The notes under the pieces: generated by a model | What the model was told of the DNA's origin: nothing | What the model saw: only the letters and a program-made list of their open reading frames with translations | Database searches by the model: none | Shown: in pieces, positions 6,836 to 53,651 of the stretch | Layout: every line of letters starts with the position of its first letter | How positions within the stretch are numbered: position 1 is the first letter of the stretch | Program-made: the position numbers and the translations under genes | Assembly: GCA_030533445.1 (NCBI GenBank) | Contig: CM060080.1 | Location: forward strand, 24,314,552-24,378,551 | Length of the DNA: 64,000 nucleotides | Direction: 5' to 3' | From: Cyprinodon diabolis | Taxonomy: Eukaryota; Chordata; Actinopteri; Cyprinodontiformes; Cyprinodontidae

Positions 6836-8507
6836 GAAGAATAAAAATAGACGAATTTAATAGATAAAAATAGACAAATTTAATCTTGGGTTTTTGTTTG
6901 TCCCTAATGACCCTATTAGTCTAAATTAAATCTAATGACCTCTTTGTATTAATTAGGAGGAAAACCTAAACCACTCAGTCCTCAGTAGGAGTAGTGCTTT
7001 GATTACTATTATATGGACATTACGACTATGGATCTGGGAAAACCCCTTCACTCTTGACATCCAAGATTTTGCTGGGTGAGTGACTTCATAGCAAAGTCTA
7101 GCTGGTCTGCTCAGTAAGTGTTTAATTTAACTGAAAGATCTTGCCCAAGCCACGCTGGAAGGGTAGTTGGAAAAGATGGTGATGGATGCTTGGTCATAAT
7201 TGAAAGCGCCACCTGTATACCTTGCACAGCAAAATATTTCCTCATAGTCCTGGTAGTTGTGGAGCTTTTCAAAACTCAGACAATGTTACCCCTTGGCTTA
7301 CTGGATTTGCTAGGTTTGGTGCGATCTGTCAATAGGTATGTCTATATCCATATCTAGAACCTCCTTCAATAGCTTTGTAACAGAAGTTGTTGTGCATTTA
7401 GTAGCTTCCTGATTTGACCAGTATATATAAGGTGTACAAATATTTGATCATCTCCTTCTTCCTTCTATATCGATGCATTTCTCTTGTAGACTTTTTGATT
7501 CCTTCTTGAGTGTGCTGACAATACTGTAGACTGCAAGTCCCCCATCAGACTGTTCTCCATATCTTTCACTTTCCCTTTCATCAGCTCTAGGTCTGACTAG
7601 AGCATAGCGATATGTAATTTGAAATGTAATTTAAAATTGCAGAGTTGTGTTAAAGAAGGCTCTGTGTATGCACCGTGATCATCTATCTTTCTGGTTCTTT
7701 TCCCTGAAAAGATATCACTCGGGACAAACTCATAAATAACTCTTCATAACTTATATGTATTAAATAACTAGGAAACATTGCAACAGGTTCTGATAGAAAT
7801 TGTAATCTTACTCAGATCAGAGAAATTGCTTAGAATGGACAGAAGGCGGCTGCTCATCTCCGGGCTCACCTCTCAGGAAGTGGCCCCGATTAATAGTTAA
7901 AAAGGCATTTTATGCATCTCCAGTCTGCCACATCATATTTACATCATACACATTAGCAGATGATTAGACATCCGTGGCTCCATCCTTATCAAAATATTCC
8001 ACTTTGTTCTGAGCTGAAGGACACTGCTCTCAAATCTTTGCCACGTACAGAATAAAGATTATAACTGTATATCCAGACAGAGGAACTGTCCTAATTAGAT
8101 TAACTATTGTGGGAAAACATCAGTTCTGACATGCAACAGACAGAAAATACCAAGGTGTAATAAACACAAATCTTCAGTGATAATTATCCTAACAGTCGCA
8201 TCATACATAATGATGTAGCCTAAAACGATGGACAATTTCTTCTAAGTAACATCAAATGTAGTCATTTAGGGGAATTAAGCTTTGGATAACCACTGACTGA
8301 TGGTGCAAGTCTCCTACATCAGGTCTTTGTACCTGAGAGTAGATCATAAATAGGAGAAAAATAGTGACTGCATCATTTTCTCTTAAAATAATTTAAGAAC
8401 GAATTTGTTTTTATGAACAGTTCTTGCATGGCATCATTGTCTCTGTGATAAAGATGAACCAGCAAAAAAGTTTTATGTAAGTAAATTAGGTATATCATTA
8501 GATCCTT

Positions 8508-8513
8508 TTTAAT
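8508..8513 (-). terminator. Candidate ATTAAA polyadenylation signal of the triple-GAIN gene
   Basis: ATTAAA on the minus strand, about 87 nt past the stop codon. No AATAAA was found nearer. Weak evidence, based on the hexamer and distance alone. Confidence 0.3.
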
Positions 8514-8599
8514 TTCTAAATTGTATCAGTTCACTTAAATTATTAAGCATATAGTAAATTAACTTAGGTTATATGAGGCTGGGAGGAAGGATAAGCAAC

Positions 8600-9803
8600 T
8601 TATCCGTAAGGTGATGTGTACACAGTCTGTGAGGATTGGCTGCTGCTCTGAGATTGCTTTTGGTCCTCTGGAAGGATCTTGCTGGAGAAGTAGTAGTAAA
8701 CAAACAGGAAGAATCCTACATGCAGAAAATGGATTGATTGTTTCTTTTTGTTATTCTGATATTATTCTGATTCAGGGCTGAAGATGTTTATTGTTATGTA
8801 TAGGCTTACCTTGAAAAGAGTTAAGGATGGTGAAGATGTAGTAGGAGGGAAGGAGCATAGGACCGTAGCTAAAAAATGCAAACCCCCATGTAATTCCCAA
8901 AAGGCAGAATAAACCCAGAAGAGAGAAAATCCTTGTCTTGGAGGACTCCTGGGTTTTTTTCTCTTTAGATGCATAGTGTTTGATATGCACTATGGTTACT
9001 ATAAATATGGTTAAAGTGAAGATGAACACAATACTATAGTAACCAATGTTTACACCTAAGTGAATGGTAGAATCAGGGATCCAGCACCTGAAAATCATGA
9101 AAGAAATGCATTTATTTTATAGCACAACAATCGTATTTAGAATTCAAAATATTGCTAAAAGGTTCTTACATGTTTACTGAGGTGTCGTTATTGCCAGAAA
9201 TCGTTACGTGATCATATTTGTTTGAGGCAACAAGTCCAAGCACCATAACAGCTGGAAGAACTGAACAACAATTGTTTTTAGGGATTTAATAATCTGCAGG
9301 CACACTAATTGTTTTTTTTTAAAGTGATTTCTTACCCCATCCAGTGCAGCAAATTTTGCAAAAGTAATATTTGACATCTGTGGGAATTTTGTGCAGATTG
9401 AAGTACAGGTGCAAAGCCTGCATGAAGAACCAAGTGAACGTGGCAAGCATGCTATAGTGCATAAACGCTGCCATCACCACACATGCTGCAAAGTTCTCCA
9501 GGTTAGCAATGGTCTCATTTAATAAAAAGCATAAGTTTAGGAAGAACAAGGCAATGAAAAGATTCATCAGGATCTGTACAGCTTGGGTGGCTTTAGTCTT
9601 CCTGCAAGGGGAATTCATCAATGTTAACAAAACACTGGAGAAAAAGAATCATTCAAATCAAATGCTAATTTTTTATACTTTTACCGTATGAGAAAATGCA
9701 TGAAGATAGCCACACCCAGGAAAAATATGGACATGCCACAGCCGGCTTTTGTGATTTGGGTGAGTGCTTCCAAGTGAGAGGGACTGATGTTCTCACCTGA
9801 TGA
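8600..9803 (-). other. 7TM domain exons of the triple-GAIN receptor
   Basis: Exons 9803-9685 (TM1), 9601-9336 (TM2-4), 9260-9170, 9087-8810 (TM5-7) and 8715-8600 (end of TM7 and short cytoplasmic tail). TM segments are readable: [94 protein letters not shown] and [20 protein letters not shown]. The Cys-Trp after the 9087 acceptor matches the conserved extracellular loop 2 CW. The C-terminal tail has about 25 residues and is Ser/Gln-rich. The stop is TAA at 8602..8600. Confidence 0.88.
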
Positions 9804-12800
9804 CTGATGACAAATCTTTAATAAACCTTTTTTTTCTTTTTTTTTTTACATATCAAAATGGATTTAAATATTCATAAAAATCTCCTACCATGAGGATTGC
9901 AAAAAATGTAAGATGAGAGCATTGGCATGTGATGTTGCCGTTGGACTCTTTCATCAGGCAACCATCTGTTATCCATTTTTCTTTGCCACCTGGGGGGAAG
10001 TCGTAACACGAAGGAAGGAAGGAAGGAAGGAAGGAAGGAAGGAAGGAAGGAAGGAAGGAAGGAAGGAAGGAAGGAAGACCTCCATTTATAGACTTAAAAG
10101 ATTTTCGAGACCTGTAATGTGAAGTATAAACAATAAAATACCTTCTTTACTTGTGCCATCCCAAGATACACAAGTAGCATTAGCTTCAGCCTGAATGGAG
10201 ATGGACAAAAAAAAAATCAGAATTACCGACACCAACTAAAAGTTATTATGAAAATAGTTAACCTCTCTCTCACCGTATTCACATCACGGAAGTGAATGTC
10301 GATGGTTTCTGAGAGGTTGGATATATTTACTCCCATATCTATCCCAAGAATTACGTTGTTTAAAAATAAACTGGTTTTGTTAAGCTGTTGAGATCAAAGA
10401 AATCACTGATAATTATTCCTGTATCTTACAAAAAAATAATATTACATTCTGATTTTACCTTCTCAATATCTGGGAAGCGCAAAACTCCCGCATATGATCC
10501 ATTTTTTTTCACAGCCATTTCACTGGCTTCTTTAGAAAGACGGATTGTTTGCATGGAGCCAGTAACCACATCATCCTTTTCCTTAAGAATCGATCACAAA
10601 CAGAGAATATAAAAGAAAAAATCAGATGGTATCTCAACATGTTTTTATTGTTCTGTTATAAAAGCTGGGTACCTCTACTTTGCCACTTGCATCAAAGCCA
10701 ATGTTGATGGTTGTCTTATTTTGTTGTGGCAGTCTTTGAATAACTCCAGAAATGTTCCCCATTTCAATGGTTGCTACTTGGGCATTCCCCATCATGTCCA
10801 CTATAGAACTCAGATTCTTCATTAAATTTCTGTAATTTTCCATTAACGATAACATTTTCTGACAATGCGATCAGATTGTGCCGATTTTTGTGCAATTTTT
10901 AAACCAACCTCACACATAACTTATACTTACGCTGCTTCCTCTGAGGTCAGAGGACGATCTGGTGCTCTAAAAGTTAGAGTTGCTCTTTTTACTTCTAGTT
11001 TCTTATTCTGTTTTCAAACCAAAATAGCGTACTTAGCTCAAAATGGAAAATGTCAGTATCATAGTTCATTGTGGTGTTAAATGTGTATTTGATGGTTTTT
11101 CTTACAATCAAAATGGCAAAGAATGTTAGATGAGAGCATTCACACTTGGCTCCATTGTCTTCCAAAGTTGTTTTGCAGCCGTTCATTGTCCACTTTGGAT
11201 TGGTGTCTGGTTGAAGGCAGAAGAAGATAGGCAAAAGATTTAACTCAAGTTAATATATAAAGAATGGTCACCCTCTTAGGATTTGTTTGAAATAAATTGT
11301 GAACTAAAATCTGTATTCGCTGTGATAACCATGTCATAGATTAATATGGGGGAAAACCTGTTTTCCCCCATATATATTAAACAGGTTCCGATACCATTTT
11401 CTGGCCCCGATACCGATACCCGATACCTGGCTGTGCAGTATCGGCCGATACCGATACCATAATAATGTAAAATAATTGCCATCATGGCTTTGTCAAGCTG
11501 CTGCCTACCTTTGTGAAGCAGGAAAAAATCTAATACAAAGTGAATCCAGTAGAACTTTTTATTGCCTACCAGGAGTGGGTGACAATAGTTGAATAAACTT
11601 ATGGCTCTCAAAATGGTATCGGTGCCCTATTTGTTGGTAGTCGCCGATACCGATACCACCATTTTAGGGCAGTATCAGGGCCCCGTCCGATACTGGTATC
11701 GGTATCGGTGCAGCACTATTCATTACCTTACTTAAGTAGAAATTTTGGCTATCTATACTTTACAGGTGTAATTATGTTTTAGACAACTTTTCACTTCTAC
11801 TATTTAAATATTTTACCTATTCTCTCTACTTTCTACTCCTTACATTTTAAAAATAGACTTGTTAGTTTTGTTTCATTTCTGCTCATTTTTGTTATGACGT
11901 GGTATTTAAAAAAAAATAATAATAATCAAAATAATTTGTTTCATCGAAACAATTCATTTCTTTGTGGTTGGACTTGGTCCTGCATTAACTTGTTGTTCAC
12001 CACATACCAAATTAAATTGTTTTTCAAGATGATGTACAGTTAAATTTGACACTTTTACCATTAGTTATAAAACTAAGAAACTTAGGTATAAGGAAGTTAT
12101 CATCCAGAATTGTACAAAAATGTTTCTTTAATAGCATAGTGCAGTAACCATTATAAGGTTTAATATTAATGTTTATTACTCAAGTAGAAGTATATCTCCC
12201 ACTGTTTAAAAACACTTTTTAATCAAGTAAAAGTGCCATTTTTAAAACTGCTTAAAGCATAAAAGTAAAAGTAATGCAGGAAAAAAGGTTAAGGACAGAT
12301 GCTTTAATACTTTTGACAGCTCTTGTTCCTTGGTCGTACACTCTCTAGCCACTCTGGTTTCCTACCACAGTCCAAAAACATGACTCTTGGGTTTATTGAT
12401 ATTCCTAAATTCCTTGTGTCTGTGTGCATAGTTTTGTGCCCCTGCTCTGCGACAGACTGGTGTAACCATAGACTGCTGGAGATAGGAACTAGTGCAACTG
12501 TGACCCTGATAAACTAGTGGAAGATGGATGGATTGATTCCATTCCAAGCTTTTACAATAAAGACAAATCTCTAGCAGTGGGTCAAATTAGTCAAAATGTT
12601 GCAATTTTATTTTAAAACCTTAACCTTAAAATATTCTAAGGTCATGTGCACCCAACAAACTTACCTTCTCTATTTTCAATTGTCCATGATACACAATTGT
12701 ATTTTTGTTCAGTTTGCATCTTGATAAAACAAAAATAAAAATCAGAAAATTTCCTTTATCAAGGAAACAATGTTACAAATTTTTACCATCTCGTTACCAA

Positions 12801-15800
12801 TGTAGCATCTTTGTATTGAATTTTGATGCGTTGTGACAGATTCGATATATTTCTTTCCATTTTAATTCCCAGCACTTCATCACTGAAAAGGGAATCATTG
12901 GAGCCATTTTTCTGAAAATAAAATCATGGTTCTGATATTTGCAGTACAAAAAAAAACTAAAATTGACATAACTCCAACCATAGCATAAATTCAAACTTAC
13001 ACCAATAATTCCTGGAAAAATCAGAATTCTGATGTGTGTTTCCCTTTGTTTTTTTGCCATTTCAATAGCTTCTTTTGGAAGGTTAATTTGTCTAGCGGGA
13101 CCGCCGTTTTTTTTTTGGAATTCCCCAAAAAGCTGCCAAAAGCACAGTCAACAAAAAAGTGAAACAATTTTTTAAATTATCATTTTCTCTTTCTTTGCCC
13201 AAAGCCCCATACCATTACATCTCCTCCAGCACCAAAGCCAAAGTTCATATCAGCAGAATTTTCTGGTAGCTTAGCAACCACTCCAGTGACATTGCCTATT
13301 CTGATTGCTGCTGTTTGAGCTCCTCCCATCTGTTTGGTATAGTTATCCGCCATCTCCATGATGTTTCTGTAATAGAAAAATAATTATATTAACATTCAGA
13401 TATATAAATGTATAGCTTCATTGCCACATATAGTGTATGTTTTATGTTATTAAGTAAGATACTTACAATATTTCCTCTGCGTCTAAAGGTCTGCTTTCGT
13501 TTTTTTCAAACGTCATCTCTGGTTTAGACGGCATCTTTGGTTTGAAACAAAAGAAGTCTTTTGCTCTCTTGCGCAACATCTCACCAGTAGCCCTCATAAT
13601 TCAAAATAATCAAAACCACCTTACCATGACAACGGCAATAAATGCATGAAGAGAGCATCGGCAGGTGACATTTCCAGCTGTTGCATTGGTGTCACAATGA
13701 TCTGTGGTCCAGTTTTGGCCTTGTGTACAAAAATAACCATAAAGACAACATTATAAGACACTAAATCAGAAGAATGAGACATACTTAAATTTACAAACAA
13801 ATGTATCACAGTCTTTTATGGAGCGTTCATTGAAATACATTTACCATGAAACTGTAAATAAATGTACCATTAAACAACACATTGAAAAATTAATTTACCG
13901 TTTATCTACCTAATACATCACTAAATAATCCATTGTTTCTTTTAATAAAACCGTGAAATAAGTCTTTAAATATTTCATGACATACCTAATTGACTGGTAA
14001 AGGTCTTAAACAGTTCAATGCTGTTAAATTAGGAGATATAAAAGTACACCAATAAATATTAATCTGAATAATTTCCAATTTTAATAATTTTTTTTAAATG
14101 TAAAAACCAAAGGTACTTTCTTGTAGTTGGGGCTAAAGAGTCATTTAAGTAATTTCTATCTCCCCCTCTTCTATTACTTCCACCCCCCTGCCCCCCCAAG
14201 ATGGTTATTACAGGTCTTTATACCTCACAACATGACCTAAATTGGGGTACTTTTTTATTCTCCAGCATAACTTGAGAAAGCATGAAGTAATATTAAGACA
14301 ACTTACAATATTTTATATTTAAAAGGCTTTTATTTCTTACCTTTGCTATCAGATGATACACAGAAGACACTTTTTTCGCTCTGGAATAGATAGTGACAAG
14401 CAAGGATGGAAAAATAAAAATGAAAGTTTAACTTCTTTCTTAATAATTTGTAGGAAAGTTTGTTGCAACTCTTTACCATGTCTACATTATTGTAGAGAAT
14501 GTCAATTTTCCCAGAATGATTGGTTGGTCCTATTTCAATCCCCAGGACTTTATTGTTCAAAAAAGAGCTATTTGACTCAAATTGCTGCAAAACAAATATG
14601 GTAGATGTTTATTAATGATATCAACATTTACAAAAACAGATATAAGATTATATCTCTTCTTACTTTAGGCATTCCTGGAAAAAGCAGAACTCCAATGTAT
14701 TTGTCCTTTCGTTCTGATGTTATATTATCATCTTTCTTAGATATTGTAATGCTGAGAACGATATCCATCTCCACGTCATTGTTTTCCGTTAGAAACTTGG
14801 ATGAGGAGAGTTATGTATTGATGAGTACTTAATCCACATACAGTATAAACACTTTGTTATTCTCTTTATGTTCCTTATTCAAAAGAAGGTGCATACTTGT
14901 ACTTCCCCATTGGATGTGAAACTAATATTCAATGTAGTCTGATCTTGATCTTGTTGTAGTTTAGTAATTGCCCCCGTTATTTCACCAATTTTAATGAATG
15001 CGGTCTCAGAATCTCCCATTTTGTCAAGGTAGGAGCTAAAATTATTCATAATATTTCTGTAATGAAAACAAAATCAATTAGGGTAACTCCTTGTCACTGA
15101 TAACATTATTCAACTATTTTGAAATAATAATACAGCCTCTGTTAGTGTTCATTTCATCCTTGCATTTGTTTCACTAAAGAAATACATTTACATCGATTTA
15201 TTTAGACTCATCTCATTGCTTAAGTGCTGAAAAGTTAGGTTCCGATGTTTATTCCCAGCCAGGTCAGAAGCTTCACAAGGGATTGTTTTTACACAAGATG
15301 TTATTTTAAGTCCAAACTCAAACGTGTATTCAATCGGATCTGTCAATCAAAACACAAATGGTAAACCACCTCCATTTATACAACATGTTTGTAGCCATAC
15401 TAACCACTCAAAGCTTTAAAAACTTTTTAAAACTTTAAAACCCTACAGCCATTTTCACCCAGTCACACTCACACTCACAAACAGATACATAAAAGTGTAA
15501 TGGCAGGAAGCTTGGATCACTAAAGACAGTTATTCCTCCCAGAGAGCCACAGCTCCCCCTAACATGCACACTAGTAAATACATTATATTGAGGAAATGAT
15601 TACAGAGATGTTTAATTTAAAAAAAATTTATAATAGAATACCCTGATGACTCTGTGACTCATTACATAGTTTAGAACAAGGGTAATCCAGACTCATTCTG
15701 ATATTTCTGCCACCTGCCAAAAAAAATAAAAAATAGAACAAATATAATCAAAAACCCTAAAAAAAAGCTACAGTATGCTTTTGCACAGGAAGGTTTGTAG

Positions 15801-17303
15801 CAGTAGAATATAGTTACCTGGATTTAAGCACTTGTGAACATTTAATATAGTCTCTATAGAAGAATAAAGCAAGCAAATAGAAAATATTAGAAAAGATTTT
15901 AATATTTTAACCTAAAGAGGAAAAAGTTTCACAGCTTAGTTTTAAAATCAATAATCTTCAATAGTACCTGTTGAATTGTGGAGGTCTGACATATTGCATG
16001 AAAAATTGCTCATTGGTTTTAGTATGACCACAATATCGTGCTTGCGTAGAGTCCCTTCATTTACAGTCAGCCTGTAAGTGCTGTTAATGAGTGGATCTAT
16101 TTTGGTGCTGCAGGAAAAATAGTCGCTGCTACAACAATCTGGAAAAAAGAATCCATGACATTAAACAATAAAGATGGAAAACTGTATTCATTTAGGAAGG
16201 TGATGACGATAGGCCAGCTAATAGAGAACTTTACCTGCGTAAGCCTGGTTTGCCTTGGTGTTGAAACAAAGCCGAGTTTCATATAGTTGTTTAAAGACAA
16301 CAGCTAAAAAAGTAAACAAAAGCAAATAAAAACTGAAGAATCATAAAACAACAAGAACAAAAAGTATAAACAAATAAACAAACAAAAAAAAAATGTTTCT
16401 TAGGACTTTCTTTTTTTCACAATTAATCCAAACTGACCTGATGGAGGAAAGGGATTACGAGCATTCTCTTTTGTACTAATGAAAAGTATGTTTTTGAGCC
16501 TGCGTTTACCCCTCATTCCTGTAAAAGATAGGAAAACATATATAGAACACATAACTGTCCAGGCTGAACCTAATAATTATTTTGAAAATCAACCAATGAT
16601 TTGATTACTTACCTGAAGCTTTGCAAACACGATTTTGATTCCCAAGTTGGTCCAATGGTTCGCAAGAGACCCTTTTCACACAAGTTGTCATTTTAGATCC
16701 AAACTCAAACATGTAATTAATTTTACCTGCGAATTAAAGCACAAGCAGAAATGAACTGAATTTATATAATACCTTTACAGTCATACTGACCTTTCAGATC
16801 TTTTAAAACCCGCCACATTTCCCCAAACACAATCATACAGCAATGCAGAGATTGATTGCAACTTGGGAATACGCTCCCAACTGGCCAAGGACACATAGAC
16901 TTGCGATTGGAGAAAACTGGAATCAAATCTACATTCTTCAAGATGACTGCAATTACCATAGGGCCACAGTAACCCTAACATGCACACTAGCGAACACAAT
17001 ATAAACTTAATGTCAACTGAGGTTTCATTAGAAATGTTATGGTAGAATACCTTGACAAGTCTGTAAATCATTATTAATATTTGAACATGGATTATCCAGG
17101 CTCAGTCTGATATTTCTGCCACCTGCAAAGAAAAAAAAAAAAAGCAGAGAAAGAAAGGGTAAGAAGGGGTATGCTTCAGGGCTATGCATTCATGGAAGAT
17201 GTACTTACCTGGCTTTAACCAGTTGTGAAGGTTTCTTATGAACTCTTTAGAATAATGAAAAACAAAAGTAGACAAGATTAGAAGAGGCATTCAGTGTATG
17301 AGG

Positions 17304-17387
<84 letters not shown>

Positions 17388-18207
17388 CAATGAGTAAAGT
17401 AAGTAAGTTTCACTGCTTAGTTTTCATAGCAATAATCTTCAATAGTACCTGTTGAATTGTGGAGGTCTGACAGATTGCATGAAAAATTGCTCATTGGTTT
17501 TAGTAAGACCACAATATCGTGCTTGAGAAGAGTCCCTTCATTCACAGTCACCCTGTAAGTGCTGTTACTGAGCTGATCTATTTTGCTGCTGCAGGAAAAA
17601 TATTCGCTGCTACAACAATCTGGAAAAAAAGATCCATGACATTTAACGTTCAAGATGTTACAATGTCCACATTTAGGAAGGCAAAGATAGGCTAGCTAGT
17701 AGAGAACTTTACTTGCGTTAGACTGGTTTCCCTGGACGTTGAAACAAAGCCCAGTTCCATTGACTTTATGAAAGAAAATGGCTAAAAAAAATAAAGTAAG
17801 CAAAAGAAAAATCAAAAAAATGACAATTATTAAACAAGCAAAAGAAAAAATAAATAACAAGACATTTTTATTTTTGTGTTATTCATTTTTATGTCAGGAT
17901 TTCTTATTTTTTTACACAATTAATCCAGGCTCACCTGATGGAAAAACAGGATTGACTGCAACTTCTTCAGCACTAAGAAAAAGTATGTTTTTGAGCCTGT
18001 GTTTTTTCCCTGTTCCTGTAAAAATATAGAATGACTTAAAAAAATACTACACATAACTAGAAACAAGATACTATTGCGTCTTCTAAAAAATTAAATGTTT
18101 CCTTACTGACCTGAAGCTTCACAAAAGTGGTTCTGGAGTAAAAACCCAGAGCAGAGAGCAAATATCAAAACTGGGATCCAGTGGTGATTTACGACCGACA
18201 GCAACAT
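8600..18207 (-). CDS. Adhesion GPCR with three tandem GAIN/GPS modules (ADGRG-like), 35 coding exons, 1287 aa
   Basis: Predicted cell-surface receptor of the adhesion GPCR family. Exons (genomic, transcription order): 18207-18111, 18015-17935, 17781-17713, 17619-17449, 17244-17209, 17122-17051, 16726-16613, 16518-16438, 16303-16235, 16138-15968, 15853-15818, 15713-15642, 15339-15192, 15056-14897, 14795-14664, 14584-14477, 14380-14341, 13719-13625, 13534-13467, 13366-13213, 13132-13001, 12911-12798, 12719-12665, 11206-11106, 11007-10931, 10829-10673, 10581-10459, 10384-10274, 10190-10142, 9989-9889, 9803-9685, 9601-9336, 9260-9170, 9087-8810, 8715-8600. They total 3864 nt, all borders are AG/GT, phases match throughout, and I found no internal stop. 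Protein order: signal peptide 1-31, N-terminal cassette 1 (33-213), cassette 2 (214 to ~390), GAIN-A (to 584), GAIN-B (585-792), GAIN-C (793-998), 7TM (999-1287). GPS and TM motifs ([38 protein letters not shown]) suggest group VIII, near ADGRG1/3/5. The ligand is unknown. The weakest calls are the acceptors of the 68- and 55-nt exons (13534, 12719). Confidence 0.85.
9889..11007 (-). other. GAIN module C with intact GPS (7TM-proximal)
   Basis: Exons of 77, 157, 123, 111, 49 and 101 nt total 618 nt, phase 0 to 0. Their sizes are closest to the single-GAIN neighbour (157, 129, 111, 49, 101), so this is probably the ancestral module. Motifs: RPLTSEEAA, NLMKNLSSIVDMMGNAQ, MGNISGVIQRLP, YAGVLRFPDIE, ILGIDMGVNISNLSETIDIHF and a CVSWDG...W..DGC...[16 protein letters not shown]. 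Cleavage is expected between Leu991 and Thr992, which would leave a TFFAILM tethered agonist next to TM1. The first acceptor was placed at 11007 because only that site gives the phase needed to join module B. Confidence 0.85.
10011..10078. repeat. (AAGG)n microsatellite inside a 152-bp receptor intron
   Basis: About 17 units lie between exons 10190-10142 and 9989-9889. On the transcribed strand it reads as CCTT repeats starting about 20 nt upstream of the acceptor of the GPS-C exon, so it may act as or disturb the polypyrimidine tract. Confidence 0.95.
11344..11373. repeat. Perfect inverted repeat (hairpin)
   Basis: Two 14-bp arms (ATATGGGGGAAAAC and its complement) are separated by 2 bp, beside the GATACC-rich element in the same intron. 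It may mark an element edge. Confidence 0.85.
11380..11720. mobile_element. Non-autonomous DNA transposon (MITE) with GATACC-rich inverted ends, in a receptor intron
   Basis: The left end is rich in CCGATACCGATACC and the right end in GGTATCGGTATCGG, ending near GCAGCACT. This inverted arrangement is familiar from short hAT-like elements in fish. It sits in the intron between exons 12719-12665 and 11206-11106. The left boundary is unclear and no coding capacity is seen. Confidence 0.55.
12400..12540 (+). mobile_element. Non-LTR/SINE tail copy inside a receptor intron
   Basis: Contains GCTCTGCGACAGACTGGTGT, AGACTGCTGGAGATAGGAAC and an AAGATGGATGGAT end, the same order as the copies at 40530 and 56500. 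Confidence 0.6.
13625..15339 (-). other. GAIN module A with degenerate GPS (probably not cleaved)
   Basis: Exons at 15339-15192 (3' part), 15056-14897, 14795-14664, 14584-14477, 14380-14341 and 13719-13625. Recognisable GAIN elements are the NIMNNFSSYLDKMGD helix, IKIGEITGAITKL, YIGVLLFPGMPK and NKVLGIEIG. The GPS reads CVSS...NWTTDHC...CRCSLHAFIAVVM. The four GPS cysteines are present, but the first conserved Trp is Ser and the HL/T tripeptide is replaced, with Ala578 at the Thr position. Autoproteolysis is therefore unlikely here. The exon ends in phase 0 and splices across a 90-bp intron into module B. Confidence 0.82.
15192..16518 (-). other. N-terminal extracellular cassette, copy 2 (tandem duplicate of copy 1)
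   Basis: Exons of 81, 69, 171, 36, 72 and 148 nt repeat the exon lengths of copy 1; the last one is extended and runs into GAIN-A. By hand count the 171-nt exons plus adjoining intron bases differ at about 11 of roughly 180 positions, so the duplication is fairly recent. Equivalent exons sit about 1.4 to 1.5 kb apart. The CCSSDYFSC and NFSCNMSDLHNSTG motifs are kept, so the disulfide pattern is probably preserved. Confidence 0.82.
16613..18015 (-). other. N-terminal extracellular cassette, copy 1 (six exons)
   Basis: Exons of 81, 69, 171, 36, 72 and 114 nt, all phase 1 to phase 1, encode residues about 33-213. The block has many cysteines (including DCCSSEYFSCSS and FSCNLSDLHNSTG), several N-X-S/T glycosylation sequons, a short EFIRNLHNWLKPG exon and a GGRNIRLSLD exon. 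I do not recognise a named domain. The single-GAIN neighbour has one equivalent block (60, 54, 165, 36, 57 nt, then a longer exon). The intron after the 171-nt exon carries a long TA microsatellite (17308..17380) that is absent from copy 2. Confidence 0.8.
17308..17380. repeat. (TA)n microsatellite in a receptor intron
   Basis: A long, almost pure TA run between exons 17619-17449 and 17244-17209. The equivalent intron of cassette copy 2 lacks it. Confidence 0.95.
18111..18207 (-). other. First coding exon: start codon and signal peptide of the triple-GAIN receptor
   Basis: The ATG at 18207..18205 opens a sequence with a hydrophobic core (WIPVLIFALCSGFLLQ), then Cys-Glu-Ala-Ser and a GT donor in phase 1. 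The neighbouring receptor's first exon (38307..38199) has the same layout and the shared elements HW...V...LLQN..C. That supports the start over the longer open frame covering 18119..18349, which lies in another frame and does not splice on. No TATA box or clear promoter was recognised upstream. Confidence 0.75.
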
Positions 18208-18359
18208 TTTCCAGAAGAGTGCAGGATGGCACGAGCATAAAAATGCGGCATAAAGTGAGAATTAAAGTATCAGAGCTTGTGGCTGCCTCTCTCAGATGAC
18301 TCAATTGTTTATCATTACTACAATCCATCTTCTGTGACATCATTACCATTCTTATTTGA

Positions 18360-22164: not shown

Positions 22165-23500
22165 ATTAGATTAGATGAGCTTTATTGATCTCACAGCGGA
22201 GAAATTCACTGGTCACATATTGGCATAGTAATTAAAGAAGGTGCAAACAAGGAGGAAAAAGGTGCATTTAGAATAAACAATATATATACAGTATATCAAG
22301 GTATATACAGTATATCAAGATAAATAAGGATTAAGGTGCAAGTGTACATGTATCACACACAATGAAAAACAAAATAGAAATAAGAAATAAAATTTTAAAA
22401 ATACAAGGGAGTAGCACAGAGATTTGAGGTGTCATATGTATAATGCGGATGGGTTACATACAGGTAGATTTACTTTTACATTAAAGTGTAGTAGGAGAGG
22501 AGCAACGGTGAGGTAGGGGTATGACTACGTATTCTATTCACATATATTGCACATTCAGCATATATAAATATAATATATAAATAAAAAAAAAATATAATAT
22601 AGCTGCACAGTGGTTGTTACAGGAGTTATTGTGTTTATAGTGCATTATTATAGAGTGTGGTGGCAGCAGGAATGAATGACCTGTGGTAGCGCTCCTTCTT
22701 ACAGACAGGGTGTCTAAGTCTTTGACTAAAGGAGCTGCTCAGCTCCTCTACAGTCTGGTGCAGAGGGTGAGAGGGGTTGTCCATGATGGATGTGAGTTTG
22801 GACAGCATCCTCCTCTCAGCCACTTCCACCACCGAATCCAGAGGGCAGCCCAGGACAGAAGTGACCTTCCTCACCAGCTTCTTCAGTCTCTTTCTGTCCT
22901 GCTCTGAGCTGCCAGGGGCCCAGCAGACGACAGCGTAGAGGAGGGCTGAGGCCACCACAGAGTCATAAAAGGTTTTAGGGAGGGTCCTGCTCACTCCAAA
23001 GGCCCTCAGCCTCCTCAGGAGGTGGAAGCGGCTCTGGCCCTTTTTATACAGAGAGTCAGTGTTGTGAGTCCAGTGTATACTGACATGAACACCTAGGTAT
23101 TTGAAACTCTCCACAGTTTCTATGTCCTGTCCCTGGATGTTCACGGGGAGGTGGGGTGGTGGTCTTCTGCTGAAGTCGACCACCATCTCCTTGGTCTTAC
23201 TGGTGTTCAGAGACAGATGGTTTCTCTCACACCAGTCCACAAAGTCCATGATGACCGACCGGTATTCCAGCTCGTTCCCTTTAGACACACAGCCCACAAT
23301 GGCCGAGTCATCGGAGAACTTCTGGAGGTGGCAGCTGTCCATGTTGTAGGTGACGTCCGAGGTGTAGAGGGTGAAAAGAAATGGAGACAGTACGGTGCCC
23401 TGGGGTGCCCTGGTGCTGCAGAGTGCCACCTCTGACTGGCAGCCATGCAGCCGCACGTACCGAGGACGGTCAGTGAGGTAGATGATGACACCGGTCACAC
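22165..23500 (-). mobile_element. L2-clade LINE inserted into the Rex3-like element
   Basis: A 315-codon minus-strand frame (22635..23582) carries L2-type RT motifs: GAPQGTV-like RAPQGTVLSPFLFTLYTSD, the catalytic KFSDDSAIVG, WCERNHLSLNTSKTKEMVVD, YLGVHV, YAVVCWAPGS, IMDNPSHPLHQTVEEL and RYHRSFIPAA. The first ~27 codons of that frame belong to the host LINE. The 3' UTR (22165..22634) ends with a TTTATTGATCTCA-type segment on the plus strand, as in other L2 tails. The element is 5'-truncated, so it is not expected to be autonomous. Confidence 0.75.
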
Positions 23501-24490
23501 AGAGGCCTGGTGCTCCATACTCCCGGAGTACCACCCACAGGACCCCCCATGGGACATGACCAAATGCCTTCTCTAGATTCACGAAACATGTGTAGACTAG
23601 TTGGGCAAACTCCCATGCACCCTCCAGGATCCTGCTGAGGGTGTACAGCTTATCCAGTTTTCCACAGCCAGGACAAAAACCACACTGCTCCTCCTGAAAC
23701 CTAGATTCGATTATCAGACGGACCCTCCTTTCCAGAACCCCGGAATAGACCCTGCCAGGGAGGCTTAAGAGTAAGAATCCTCTGTATTTGGAACACAGCC
23801 TCTGGTCCCTCTTTTAAAATAGGGGGACCACCACTCCAGTCTGTCAATCCAGGGGAACTGCCCCTTATGTCCTTGCAATGTTACAGAGTCGCGTAATCAA
23901 CAAAGCCCCACAACATCCAAAGCCTTAAGGTACTCAGGGTGAATCTTATCCACCCCTGGTGCCTTACCACTGGGGAGCTTTTTAACCACCTTACTGACCT
24001 CAGCACCAAAGATGGGAGAACCCAACCTAGAGCCCCCAGGCTCTGCTTCCTTAGTGGAAGACTTGTTGGTGGGATTAAGGACGTCTTCGAAGGACTCCGC
24101 CCACTGACATACGACATCCTTTGTCAAGGTCAGCAGCACCCCACTCCCACCATAAATAGTGTTGGTACTGCACCACTACTGGCTAGACCAGAATCGCTTC
24201 AAAGCCTTACATAAGTCTTTTTCCATGGCTCAAACTCTTCCAATGCCCGCGTTTTGTCGTAGGGACCAGCCAGCCACCTGCCACTTTGACTGTCGGTACA
24301 CATCAGCTGCTTCCGGAGTCCCACAAGCAAATAAAGCCCGATAGGACTCTTTCTTCAGCTTGAGAGCTTCCCTCACTGCTAGTGTTCACTAGCATGTTGG
24401 AAGGTTGCTGCTGCGACATACACTAACAACCTTGCAACCACAGCTCCAACTAAACAATAGAGCCACGGAACATGGTCCACTCAGACCCAA
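23500..24490 (-). mobile_element. Rex3/RTE-like LINE, 5' part
   Basis: Minus-strand segments read GGSRLGSPIFGAEVSKVVKK, GKAPGVDKIHPEYLKALDVV and NLEKAFGHVPWGVLWVVLRE. These are the RT N-terminal motifs expected upstream of the 21182..22164 segment. Order and strand agree with one element split by the L2 copy. Stops and frame changes mark it as dead. Confidence 0.7.
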
Positions 24491-34512: not shown

Positions 34513-37500
34513 TTATCCGGTGGAAGATGAGAGGTTCGTGTTTTCTGTCCCACTGCTCTGGGTTTCAAGTTGTTTTTTGTCATCTACAACTATCCTGCTC
34601 GAAAAGTAGTAGTAGACGAACAGGAAAAATCCTGCAAACACACAAACACATAAGGAGTTGGTTTGATTATTTTTGGAAATTTTGTCATTTCTGTGAAATC
34701 CAGCATGTTATGAGTTATGTTTTGGCCTACCTTGAAAGGAGTTGAGGATGGTGAAGATGTAGTAGGAAGGAAGAAGCAGAGTGCCATAGCTAAAAAAAGC
34801 AAATCCCCATGTGATGCCCAAAAGAACGAAAAGACTAAGAAGAGAGAGAAACCTTTTCTTGGTGGAGCCGTTTTTTTTGGCTTTTACATCTTTAGATGCA
34901 AAGTATGTGATCTGCACAGCAGTTAAGATGAATATGGCTAAAGTGAAGAAAAATACAATGATATAGTAACCAATGTTTACACCTAGGTGGATTTTAGCAT
35001 CGGGGATCCAGCACCTAAGTGTCATGAAAGAAACACAGTCATTTTAGAGCATGTAAATTCAATTTAAAATTGTAATTATCTGTATTATTTCCTCACATGG
35101 TTGCTGAGGTTCCATTATAAGCAGAAATGGGAATGCTATCATATTTGCTTGCAGAAAGAAGTCCAACCACAACCAGACTTGGAATAACTGAAAAGATAGG
35201 AGCATTTTCTTTCAGCTTTTAGTGTCAACTCAAATTAATTAATGTTTTAAACTCAGATCTCTTACTCCATCCAGTGCAGCAAATCTTGAACACGTAGTAT
35301 TTGATGTCTGTGGGAACTTTCTGTAGATTGAAGTACAGGTGCAAAGCCTGCATGAAGAACCAAGTAAACGTGGCGAGCATGCTATAGTGCATAAATGCAG
35401 CCATCACCACACATGCTGCCATGTTATCCAGGTTAGCAATTGACTCGTTTATCAGAAAAGTTAAGTTCAGGAAGAACAAGGCAATGAAGAGATTCATCAG
35501 GATCTGTACCGCTTGGCTGGCTTTATTTTTCCTGTATGTCAAATAGTTTATGTTAACAAAACGTGAAGAGAGCAATCATAAAATTTAAAGGCTGATCATT
35601 TAATATTTATACCTTATGAGAAAATGCATGAAGAGAGCCACACCCAGGAAGAACATGGACATGCCGCAGCCGGCTTTTGTGATTTGGGTCAGTGCTTTCA
35701 AGTCAGCGGCACTGATCTGTCCAGTCATGTCATCAGTGGAATTACTAGGATTTCCATTACTATCGGAATTTCCTATGCCGAACGGTGACTGGTTTTAAAC
35801 AAGAACATTAAGTTAGAAAACAAGAAAAATATTAAAAGTGGTTTTAAGAAATCACATGGAAAATGTCCTACCATGAGAATCGCAAAAAAAGTAAGATGAG
35901 AGCATTGGCATGTGATGCTGTCATTGACGATATTTGTTAGACAACCATCAGTGACCCAGCTTAAATTTGTTCCTGATGGACAACATAAAGAGGAAGTAAA
36001 AGGATGTTTAATGGATTAAATGACACTCAGTTATGAAACTGTATGTTCAGTAAAACAGTGTTTTTTTTTGTTGTTGTTTTTTTTAAACAGATGATAGTCC
36101 AATAAAATCTGTTGATAAATCATTCCAGAGTTGTTTTTTTTCAGATGACAAATGTCCTTATTTGGAGAAAATGTCTACAGCATTTAAAGAAAGGACATGA
36201 TTTAATCTATAAATTTAATTTAAAGTGAGATAAATCAGCTGATATATCACAACTCTTAACCCATTATTTATAATCTTTACAAGACGGAAAGATGACCTGT
36301 GAAAGCAACCTACCAGAGCTGTTTCTCCCATCCCATGATACACATGTGGCGTTCAATCCAGTCTGTATAAGAGCAAAAATGAAACGTTTTGAACAGAAAT
36401 TGAATATTGGTATAAACATTGTCTACATCTCTTTACCGTGTTCACATTGGTGAAATGCATGTCGATGGTTTTTGCGAGATTATGTATGTTTGCTCCCATT
36501 TCAATCCCCAGCATAGTATTATCCAAAAGTGAGTGATTTTGGTCAATCTGTTGAGAATAGAATACATATTCTATTAAATGATTATGTGTAGTTTTTATGA
36601 GAATAAGATCTTCCTTGGTTTTTACCTGAGGCATGTCTGGAAAAACCATAACTCCTGCAAATGTGCCATTTTTTTCAACCGCCATTTCACAGGCTTCCTC
36701 AGGAAGGTATACGCTTTGAGAGAAGTACGTCAACGGGTCTTTTTCCTCGAGAACCTATTACAAGCAGACAATATTAGAAGAATTCAGATTATATTCATGG
36801 TAACTTCTCTGTAATCTTGTGTAAACAGATACTACTAACCTTTACTTTCTTTTCCAATGTAAAACCAAATTTTTGGCTTGTTTGATTTTTCAAGGGCAGT
36901 TTAGCAATCACCCCTGTAACGTTGCCCATTTTGATCTCTGCTGTACTTGCATTTCCCATCCGGTTTAGCATGGAGCCAAGATCATTCATGATATTTCTAT
37001 AGAGATAATAATGATTTAGGTTAAGTAATATTACCATTAAAGTTGCACAAAGACACAGCTCGTGGTGGTTGTTTTTTTCTGTCCCTTTAATTGTGAGATC
37101 GATAACTTATATTTACACTGCTTTTGTAGCACTTATAGGCATGTCCGAGTCTTCCAAGGTGATAGCCATATCTGGGCTGATCCCTGGTAGCTCACAATTT
37201 TTCTCACAATTTTTTGTAAAATTTTTAAACTCTAAGTCATATTTCCTCTTTTTTAAATCTGTAAAAAGACAGATATATGGTGTCAATATAATGTTTCTTT
37301 GATATTTGTTTTAAAGGAACTAATAAACACAAAATGACCTTCACATTTCTCTTCATGACACTTGTCACATTTAGTCAGCCTGATGTTTCTGCCACCTTAA
37401 AACGAATTATGAGACCATGTTAGGAGCAATCACTTTTCTGAACAAATCCAGCTTTAATCAGGACACTTACCTGGTTTTAGGCAGTTGTGAATTTGTAGGA

Positions 37501-38307
37501 TGAGACCTGAGGGGAAATATTTCATTCTTTGTTTAAAGATAAAACAGTGCAAAAAAATTAGAATATTTGCTACTTTTCCAACAGTAGGGGGCAACCTTTC
37601 CTCTTTGCTGTTTATAACTGCAGGATTATTATTATTATATATATTATTTTTTTTACCTTTCTTCTCATATAAAGCTGATGGCATACATGAGAAATTTCCG
37701 GATGTATTCTGCAACACTACAATGTCTTGCTCTTGTAGGGAACTTTCATTCAGAGTTATTTTGTAGGTGGTCTCGCTATGCTGAGTTAATTCTACATTGC
37801 AGTCAAAATCTTTGCAACACACTAAAAATGCACAATGTCAGAAATATTAAGTTAGTAAGAACAAAACCTTCATTTTTTTTAAACCATAGAAAACCAGAAA
37901 GTCTCTACCTTCATTGTTTCTGTTTTCCTGGATGTTAAAACAAAACTTTTCCTTAACAGGAGCTAGAAAATAAAACCACAAAATATATATTTTTTCTTAT
38001 TTTGAATATCCACTTTAAGGAGAATATTTCATGATGAAAAGCCAAGCTTACTTGATGGAAAAGTTGTACTGTTATCAATTTTACCACCGATAAACAGTAT
38101 CTTTTTAAACTCTGTAATAAATATAAAACAAATAAATAAGTGTTAAAACGAAAACAAATACATACTAGTTATGAATACAAATATGTTACAGTATTTACCT
38201 GGTGCATCAGAAACAGCATCACAAACAGGGTTCTGAAGCAAAAGCCCCAAAGAGAGAATAAAGGTCTTGAAAACCAACATCCAGTGAAGATTTAGTAGCC
38301 ATGCCAT
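34513..38307 (-). CDS. Adhesion GPCR with a single GAIN domain (ADGRG-like), 17 coding exons, 701 aa
   Basis: Cell-surface receptor paralogous to the gene at 8600..18207. Exons: 38307-38199, 38111-38052, 37962-37909, 37821-37657, 37506-37471, 37395-37339, 37258-37117, 36996-36840, 36754-36626, 36547-36437, 36362-36314, 35972-35872, 35788-35613, 35531-35266, 35187-35097, 35014-34731, 34631-34513. The total is 2106 nt with consistent phases. Protein: signal peptide 1 to ~31, N-terminal cassette to about 207 ([23 protein letters not shown]), GAIN about 208-390, 7TM 391-701. The GPS is CVSWDG...SWVTDGC...[13 protein letters not shown], predicting autocleavage between Leu383 and Thr384. The TM1 exon has an extra Ser/Asn-rich stretch of about 19 residues ahead of TM1 compared with the paralogue. 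Group VIII (ADGRG1/3/5-like) is inferred from GPS and TM motifs; the exact subtype and ligand are unknown. Confidence 0.88.
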
Positions 38308-52046: not shown

Positions 52047-53651
52047 CAGTGGGGCAAAAAAGTATTTAGTCAGCCACCAATAGTGCAAGTTCTCCCACTT
52101 AAAAAGATGAGAGAGGCCGGTAATTTTCATCATAGATATACCTCAACTATGAGAGACAAAATGAGAAAAAAAAATCCAGAAAATCACATTGTCTGATTTT
52201 TAAAGAATTTATTTGCAAAATATGGTGGAAAATAAGTATTTGGTCAGTTACAAACAAGCAAGATTCCTGGCTCTCACAGACCTGTAACTTCTTCTGTAAG
52301 AGGCTCCTCAGTCCTCCACTCATTACCTTCATTAATGGCACCTGTTTGAACCCGTTATCAGTATAAAAGACACCTGTCCACAACCTCAAACAGTCACACT
52401 CTAAACTCCACCATGGTCAAAACTAGAGAGCTGTCAAAGGACACCCGAAACAAAATTATAGACCTGCACCAGGCTGGGAAGTCTGAATCTGCAATAGGTA
52501 AACAGCTTGGTGTGAAGAAATCAACTGTGGGATCAATTATTAGAAAATGGAAAACATACAAGACCACTGGTAATCTTACTCGATCTGGGGCTCCATGCAA
52601 GATCTCACCCCGTGGGGTCAAAATGATCACAAGAACGGAGAGTAAAAATCCCAGAACCACACGGGGGGACCTAGTGAATGACCTGCAGAGAGCTGGGACC
52701 AAAGTAACAAAGGCTACCATCAGTAACACACTACGCCGCCAGGGACTCAAATCCTGCAGTGCCAGACGTGTCCCCCTGCTTAAGCCAGTACATGTCAAGG
52801 CCCGTCTCAAGTTTGCTAGAGAGCATTTGGATGATCCAGACGATGACTGGGAGAATATCATATGGTCAGATGAAACCAAAATAGAACTTTTTGGTAAAAA
52901 CTCTACTCGTCGTGTTTGGAGGAGAGAGAATGCTGAGTTGCATCCAAAGAACACCATACCTACAGTGAAGCATGGGGGTGGAAACATCATGCTTTGGGGC
53001 TGTTTTTCTGCTAAGGGACCAGGACGACTGATCCGTGTGAAGGAAAGAATGAATGGGGCCATGTATCGTCACATTTTGAGTGAAAACCTCCTTCCATCAG
53101 CAAGGGCATTGAAGATGAAACGTGGCTGGGTCTTTCAGCATGACAATGATCCCAAACACACCGCCCGGGTAACGAAGGAGTGGCTTCGTAAGAAGCATTT
53201 CAAGGTCCTGGAGTGGCCTAGCCAGTCTCCAGATCTCACCCCCATAGAAAATCTGTGGAGGGAGTTGAAAATCCGTGTTGCCCAGCGACAGCCCCAGAAC
53301 ATCACTGCTCTAGAGGAGATCTGCATGGAGGAATGGGCCAAAATACCAGCAACAGTGTGTGAAAACCTTGTGAAGACTTACAGAAAATGTTTGATCTCTG
53401 TCATTGTCAACAAAGGGTATATAACAAAGTATTGAGATGAACTTTTGTTATTGACCAAATACTTATTTTCCACCATATTTTGCAAATAAATTCTTTAAAA
53501 ATCAGACAATGTGATTTTCTGGATTTTTTTTTCTCATTTTGTCTCTCATAGTTGAGGTATATCTAGGATGAAAATTGCTGGGCTCTCTCATCTTTTTAAG
53601 TGGGAGAACTTGCACTATTGGTGGCTGACTAAATACTTTTTTGCCTCACTG
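52047..53651 (+). mobile_element. Complete Tc1/mariner transposon, 1605 bp
   Basis: Terminal inverted repeats of about 200 bp (52047..52246 and 53452..53651) begin CAGTGGGGCAAAAAAGTATT on the left and CAGTGAGGCAAAAAAGTATT on the right and are nearly identical. TA dinucleotides flank both ends, as expected for Tc1 insertion into a TA repeat. The element holds one full-length transposase ORF. The similarity of the ends and the open frame indicate a young copy. Confidence 0.93.
52413..53435 (+). CDS. Tc1-family DD34E transposase, 340 aa, apparently intact
   Basis: Cuts and pastes the surrounding element into TA sites in the nucleus. The start ATG has an ACC ATGG context at 52413. Residues about 1-110 form the paired-like HTH DNA-binding region ([52 protein letters not shown]). 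The catalytic domain shows the first Asp in [10 protein letters not shown], the second in [12 protein letters not shown] and Glu in [10 protein letters not shown]. Exactly 34 residues lie between the second and third acidic residues. A glycine-rich [15 protein letters not shown] box is present. Length fits the family norm of about 340. No frameshift or stop. Whether it is expressed is unknown. Confidence 0.95.

Follow-up and report, generated by a model that had tools for sequence, protein, structure and literature searches.

Adhesion G protein-coupled receptors (GPCRs) normally carry one GAIN domain, tied to the seven-transmembrane domain (7TM). Can this domain be multiplied within a single receptor? 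The question is raised by a locus in a stretch of 64,000 nucleotides of Cyprinodon diabolis (contig CM060080.1, positions 24,314,552 to 24,378,551), hereafter the window, where a first-pass annotation had described one gene with three successive GAIN/GPS modules before one 7TM. We placed the exons anew from the minus-strand sequence and again obtained 35 exons with matching phases and the same coding frame of 3,864 nucleotides (18207..8600, minus strand, 1,287 amino acids). All 34 introns are GT-AG and the exon phases agree throughout. Pfam found three stretches of GPS (PF01825) in this one protein (whole-protein score 92 bits) and a single 7tm_2 match of 109.5 bits over a cut-off of 20.6, as befits a secretin/adhesion-type 7TM. 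Scored as isolated pieces, GPS-A stayed below the cut-off of 22.5 bits with 20.4, and GPS-B and GPS-C reached 48.0 and 59.2. Pairwise alignments of the three modules, A, B and C, extend along almost the entire module (A-B 28% identity, E 1e-24; A-C 37%, 4e-38; B-C 40%, 1e-42). This level of identity marks the modules as diverged copies rather than a recent repeat of the assembly, and the three successive modules of the earlier description are confirmed. We consider it very probable that this gene codes for a three-GAIN ADGRG-type receptor of cyprinodontoid fishes, which arose when the five to six exons encoding a GAIN were duplicated in tandem within one gene.

The order along the protein is a hydrophobic start, two copies of an N-terminal module (N1 and N2), GAIN-A, GAIN-B, GAIN-C and the 7TM, all encoded on the minus strand. 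Exon 1 (18111..18207, phase 0 to 1) holds the start codon and a hydrophobic N-terminus that by eye resembles a signal peptide. It is followed by N1 in exons 2-7 (16613..18015) and N2 in exons 8-13 (15192..16518), the last of which also encodes the start of GAIN-A. Module A occupies exons 14-18 (13625..15056, GPS-A exon 13719-13625) and has orthologues in four other species. Exons 19-24 make up module B (11106..13534, GPS-B exon 11206-11106) and exons 25-30 module C (9889..11007), whose GPS-C exon (9989-9889) is the sole GPS followed by a 7TM. The latter, with a short tail and the stop codon, is found in exons 31-35 (8600..9803). As had been proposed, introns of only 90 bp (13535..13624) and 98 bp (11008..11105) lead from GPS-A directly to module B and from GPS-B directly to module C. 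No pieces of a 7TM were seen between the GAIN modules in the six-frame peptides, read by eye; the matches listed by tblastn all lie outside 8500-18300. Each of the three GPS exons ends in phase 0, the phase in which the TM1 exon begins, and the second exon of every module (A.2, B.2, C.2) begins in phase 2. Modules B and C each open with an additional exon (B.1, 68 bp; C.1, 77 bp) that begins in phase 0 and ends in phase 2. Being bounded by phase-0 introns, a B or C module would form a unit that could be added whole, and perhaps skipped, without a frameshift.

The phase-0 junction of the GPS-C exon with the exon of TM1 puts a GAIN/GPS directly before a class B2 7TM, as in the teleost ADGRG receptors (with the database names G2-like, G5-like, G6-like and G11). 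The window protein departs from the usual single GAIN by its three GPS-bearing modules. This is a variation within the adhesion GPCRs (class B2) and gives no ground for exclusion from the family. Most of the named database matches were ADGRG-named fish proteins, and the best matches of the C and 7TM part of the Xiphophorus hellerii protein among solved structures were G2, G6 and G3. By these nearest relatives the receptor appears to be of ADGRG type. Its nearest sequence relatives, the teleost single-GAIN ADGRG proteins, differ in having one GAIN instead of three, and the same difference separates it from ADGRG3/GPR97 and ADGRG1/GPR56 (solved GAINs 7qu8 and 5kvm), where one GAIN is followed by the 7TM. 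Of the 133 proteins found in the searches, 52 and 36, chosen by hand, entered two structure models. The GAIN fold of module A was recovered through the goodeid orthologue, module C was well modelled in protein P0003 (confidence blocks mostly 73-95), and module B was assigned to GAIN by homology only.

Similar arrays were found in other fishes. Among 117 database relatives, the three best align with 98-100% of residues 390-1287 (55% identity). They belong to the poeciliids Poeciliopsis prolifica (LOC129365643), Xiphophorus maculatus (LOC106699841) and X. hellerii (LOC116709664), and all are named only 'uncharacterized protein'. Each has three GPS and is collinear with the window protein through both the A-B and the B-C joints. 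By a GPS profile made from 110 of the 117 relatives, 111 of them have one GPS, these 3 have three, 1 (P0004) has two and 2 have none. The protein with two, from Channa striata (895 amino acids), also has repeated 7TM fragments and is probably a model joining exons of neighbouring genes, not a case of tandem GAIN domains. A further search with the A-B-C alignment gave 20 proteins, 16 of them new. Among these were proteins of the goodeid Xenoophorus captivus, in which N, A and B lie on a contig of 17,977 bases and C with the 7TM on a separate one of 11,548 bases. Gambusia affinis, Poecilia mexicana and P. reticulata showed only single-GAIN proteins in the lists obtained, which may reflect loss of the array or incomplete models, and single-GAIN proteins were also found in Kryptolebias (Aplocheiloidei) and Nothobranchius. 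The three families with parts of the array all belong, as looked up, to the Cyprinodontoidei, and on present sequences the triple GAIN looks like an inherited architecture of these fishes. The claim of a new architecture is supported, with a qualification. The three-GAIN design is unusual and we found no on-topic paper about tandem or multiple-GAIN or two-GPS receptors in the open-licence PMC literature (the part of PMC13197933 consulted contains neither 'more than one GAIN' nor 'tandem'). It is not confined to this locus, however, equivalent unnamed models having already been deposited.

In order to estimate the age of the modules we used trees of 44 and 60 rows, which included 32 single-GAIN rows and 42 plus a single-GAIN paralogue from the window, respectively, chosen by hand. 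In the larger tree the five A modules form one clade (support 100/99). The seven C modules come together with support of 93/63, or 96/89 when P0006 of Poecilia mexicana is added, as sister to the single-GAIN paralogues (95/92), and the C module of the window is nearest to that of Fundulus diaphanus. The window B module groups with the goodeid B (99/97). Constraining all B modules to stay together gave a likelihood 1.23 higher (approximately unbiased test, p-AU 0.526), and in the 44-row tree four B modules group at 92/56. Because of these groupings the modules appear to predate the parting of the window, goodeid and poeciliid lineages; the distinctness of A by then is firm and that of C likely, and that of B is allowed by the trees. 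No stop interrupts the 395 codons of modules A and B. In a simple simulation that ignored indels, and is not a formal test, all 500 copies had lost their open frame at 0.3 changes per site.

The modules differ in their GPS. The canonical cleavage motif is H-X-S/T, and the motif by itself is insufficient for cleavage (PMC13062082). GPS-A of the window reads C-x-C-S-L-H-A-F, devoid of this motif, and GPS-B reads C-x-C-S-H-L-T-F. At positions -2, -1 and +1 of GPS-A there is L-H-A in the window, H-Q-A in both Xiphophorus, H-H-A in Xenoophorus and H-K-T in Poeciliopsis. The motif is thus absent from four of the five sequences, the two Xiphophorus modules being identical. Judged by motif, GPS-A does not appear to be a working cleavage site. 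The GPS-B keeps H-L-T in the four readable sequences (the window and the three poeciliids; the end of the goodeid B is unreadable in its model) and GPS-C does so in 7 of 7. GPS-C is followed by the strand T-F-F-A-I-L-M, and GPS-B by T-F-F-A-I-L-I in the window and T-F-F/Y-T-Y-R-M in the poeciliids. All 16 array-type modules whose GPS is complete keep its four cysteines.

Several observations weigh against an inherited three-GAIN receptor. The proteins of the poeciliids and the goodeid are gene models from databases, both joints rest on gene models, and the deposited models of Ataeniobius and Fundulus hold only C and the 7TM. Poeciliopsis retains H-K-T in GPS-A, so cleavage at A has not been lost in every species. 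The free 60-row tree puts the poeciliid B modules with a Kryptolebias single GAIN (88/87) and not with that of the window. Identity of the window to its orthologues is 45-57% for A and 39-47% for B versus 61-69% for C, a faster evolution that possibly reflects relaxed constraint. As for the structures, confidence in A and B is low to middling in the P0003 model (blocks of about 25-85), module B of P0118 was misaligned in the model input and has a predicted local distance difference test score under 50, neither model being suited to judging the fold of B, and a sequence comparison of module A by itself with solved GAINs reaches only E 0.16.

The explanation that survives best besides internal duplication is that the modules are splice cassettes, the three-module mRNA being one of several forms and the main products joining GPS-A or GPS-B to TM1, or the N module to GAIN-C. 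The phases described above permit all these junctions, and the X. hellerii record is an 'isoform X2', hence its annotation contains other forms. Nevertheless, the three full-length poeciliid models contain all three modules, and both the missing cleavage motif of most GPS-A and the strand after the poeciliid GPS-B, no longer Stachel-like, are as expected of modules that do not stand before a 7TM. We regard this explanation as rather unlikely. More unlikely still is a decaying or mis-joined locus, in which what is left of neighbouring tandem receptor genes, now without their 7TM parts, has been joined only on paper, with A and B left out of the translated receptor. The faster evolution of A and B, the presence of a tandem paralogue 16 kb away and the weak constraint on the doubled N module (dN 0.22, dS 0.29 by NG86) would fit it, but every frame and splice site is intact, the order of modules is common to several species, the GPS cysteines are retained in each complete array module and no 7TM pieces were seen between them. 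Chance, or an artefact of the window assembly (collapse or false tandem), can be practically discarded, since the modules differ mutually at at least 60% of their residues and the same collinear array appears in models of three other species, from other assemblies. The internal duplication put forward in the first-pass annotation is supported by the collinear poeciliid proteins, the two-piece goodeid array and the neighbouring single-GAIN gene with the same phases.

This neighbour (34513..38307, minus strand) has 17 exons and codes for 701 amino acids with one N module, one GAIN/GPS and one 7TM, for which Pfam gave one GPS and one 7tm_2. It acts as an internal control, and the triple-GAIN gene follows its plan with six N-module exons and five GAIN exons repeated. 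The 7TM exons of both genes (9803-8600 versus 35788-34513) are 70-89% identical, with 89% at TM1 and 88% at TM2-3, and the GAIN-C exons 63-76% identical to their counterparts. A tree of the 7TM groups the two window genes (86/84), a clade of array-type genes being worse by 8.6 log units (p-AU 0.064). The 7TM part may have undergone gene conversion. To look for the origin of exons B.1 and C.1 we compared them with the N2.7 exon, exon 7 of the paralogue and the GPS-TM1 introns (11 comparisons, 200 shuffles each). Only matches of 12-13 bases between the two fused introns and the GPS-TM1 intron of the paralogue equalled or exceeded almost every shuffle, which hints weakly at the breakpoint. The 1,458-bp intron before GPS-B contains a repeat rich in GGTATC motifs (11750-11340), perhaps a remnant of a mobile element. 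Elsewhere in the window, by eye, a frame of 392 amino acids reads like a retroelement reverse transcriptase (22635-23813, minus) and one of 361 like a Tc1-type transposase (52350-53435, plus).

The cysteine-containing N-terminal module is doubled in the window gene, and among the proteins seen only there. Because the poeciliid and goodeid proteins hold a single N and the two window copies are 64% identical, this doubling is younger than modules A, B and C. Between N1 and N2 the dN/dS ratio is 0.74 and the introns are 70-81% alike versus 70-94% for the exons; with such a ratio, and introns about as alike as exons, constraint on the module looks weak. Exon 4 is 94% identical between the copies, versus 70-76% in the other exons, which suggests local gene conversion. 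A PDB search with N2 alone gave no match except 1wgm at E 0.14. Kinship with the PLL domain of GPR56 was considered as well, and no match to it was found in this search.

How would such a receptor work? Only C adjoins the 7TM with an intact H-L-T and a Stachel-like sequence, and because of this GAIN-C would be the classic unit of autoproteolysis and tethered agonism, the only one able to present its Stachel to the 7TM. GAIN-A, with its fold and cysteines kept and the cleavage nucleophile lost in most species, is probably a rigid uncut spacer or a ligand-binding module. In the cleavage-resistant receptors ADGRB2 and ADGRB3 the uncut GAIN adjoins the 7TM, whereas the motif-less GAIN-A lies two domains away. 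GAIN-B keeps H-L-T and may cut itself, in which case the ectodomain would be held noncovalently at B as well as at C, and the strand freed at B would have no 7TM to act on. If both cut themselves, force or ligand might strip the receptor in two steps: shedding at B would remove the N-terminal and A modules and reset adhesion without signalling, and shedding at C would free the Stachel and signal. We hold this two-step scheme as a doubtful proposal.

The triple-GAIN genes provide a natural series in which GAIN copies of one gene, freed from the 7TM, have diverged in cleavage motif and Stachel and kept the four GPS cysteines. This series allows the features that a GAIN needs for folding to be separated from those for cleavage or agonism, and bears on whether GAIN domains can serve as plain ectodomain modules.
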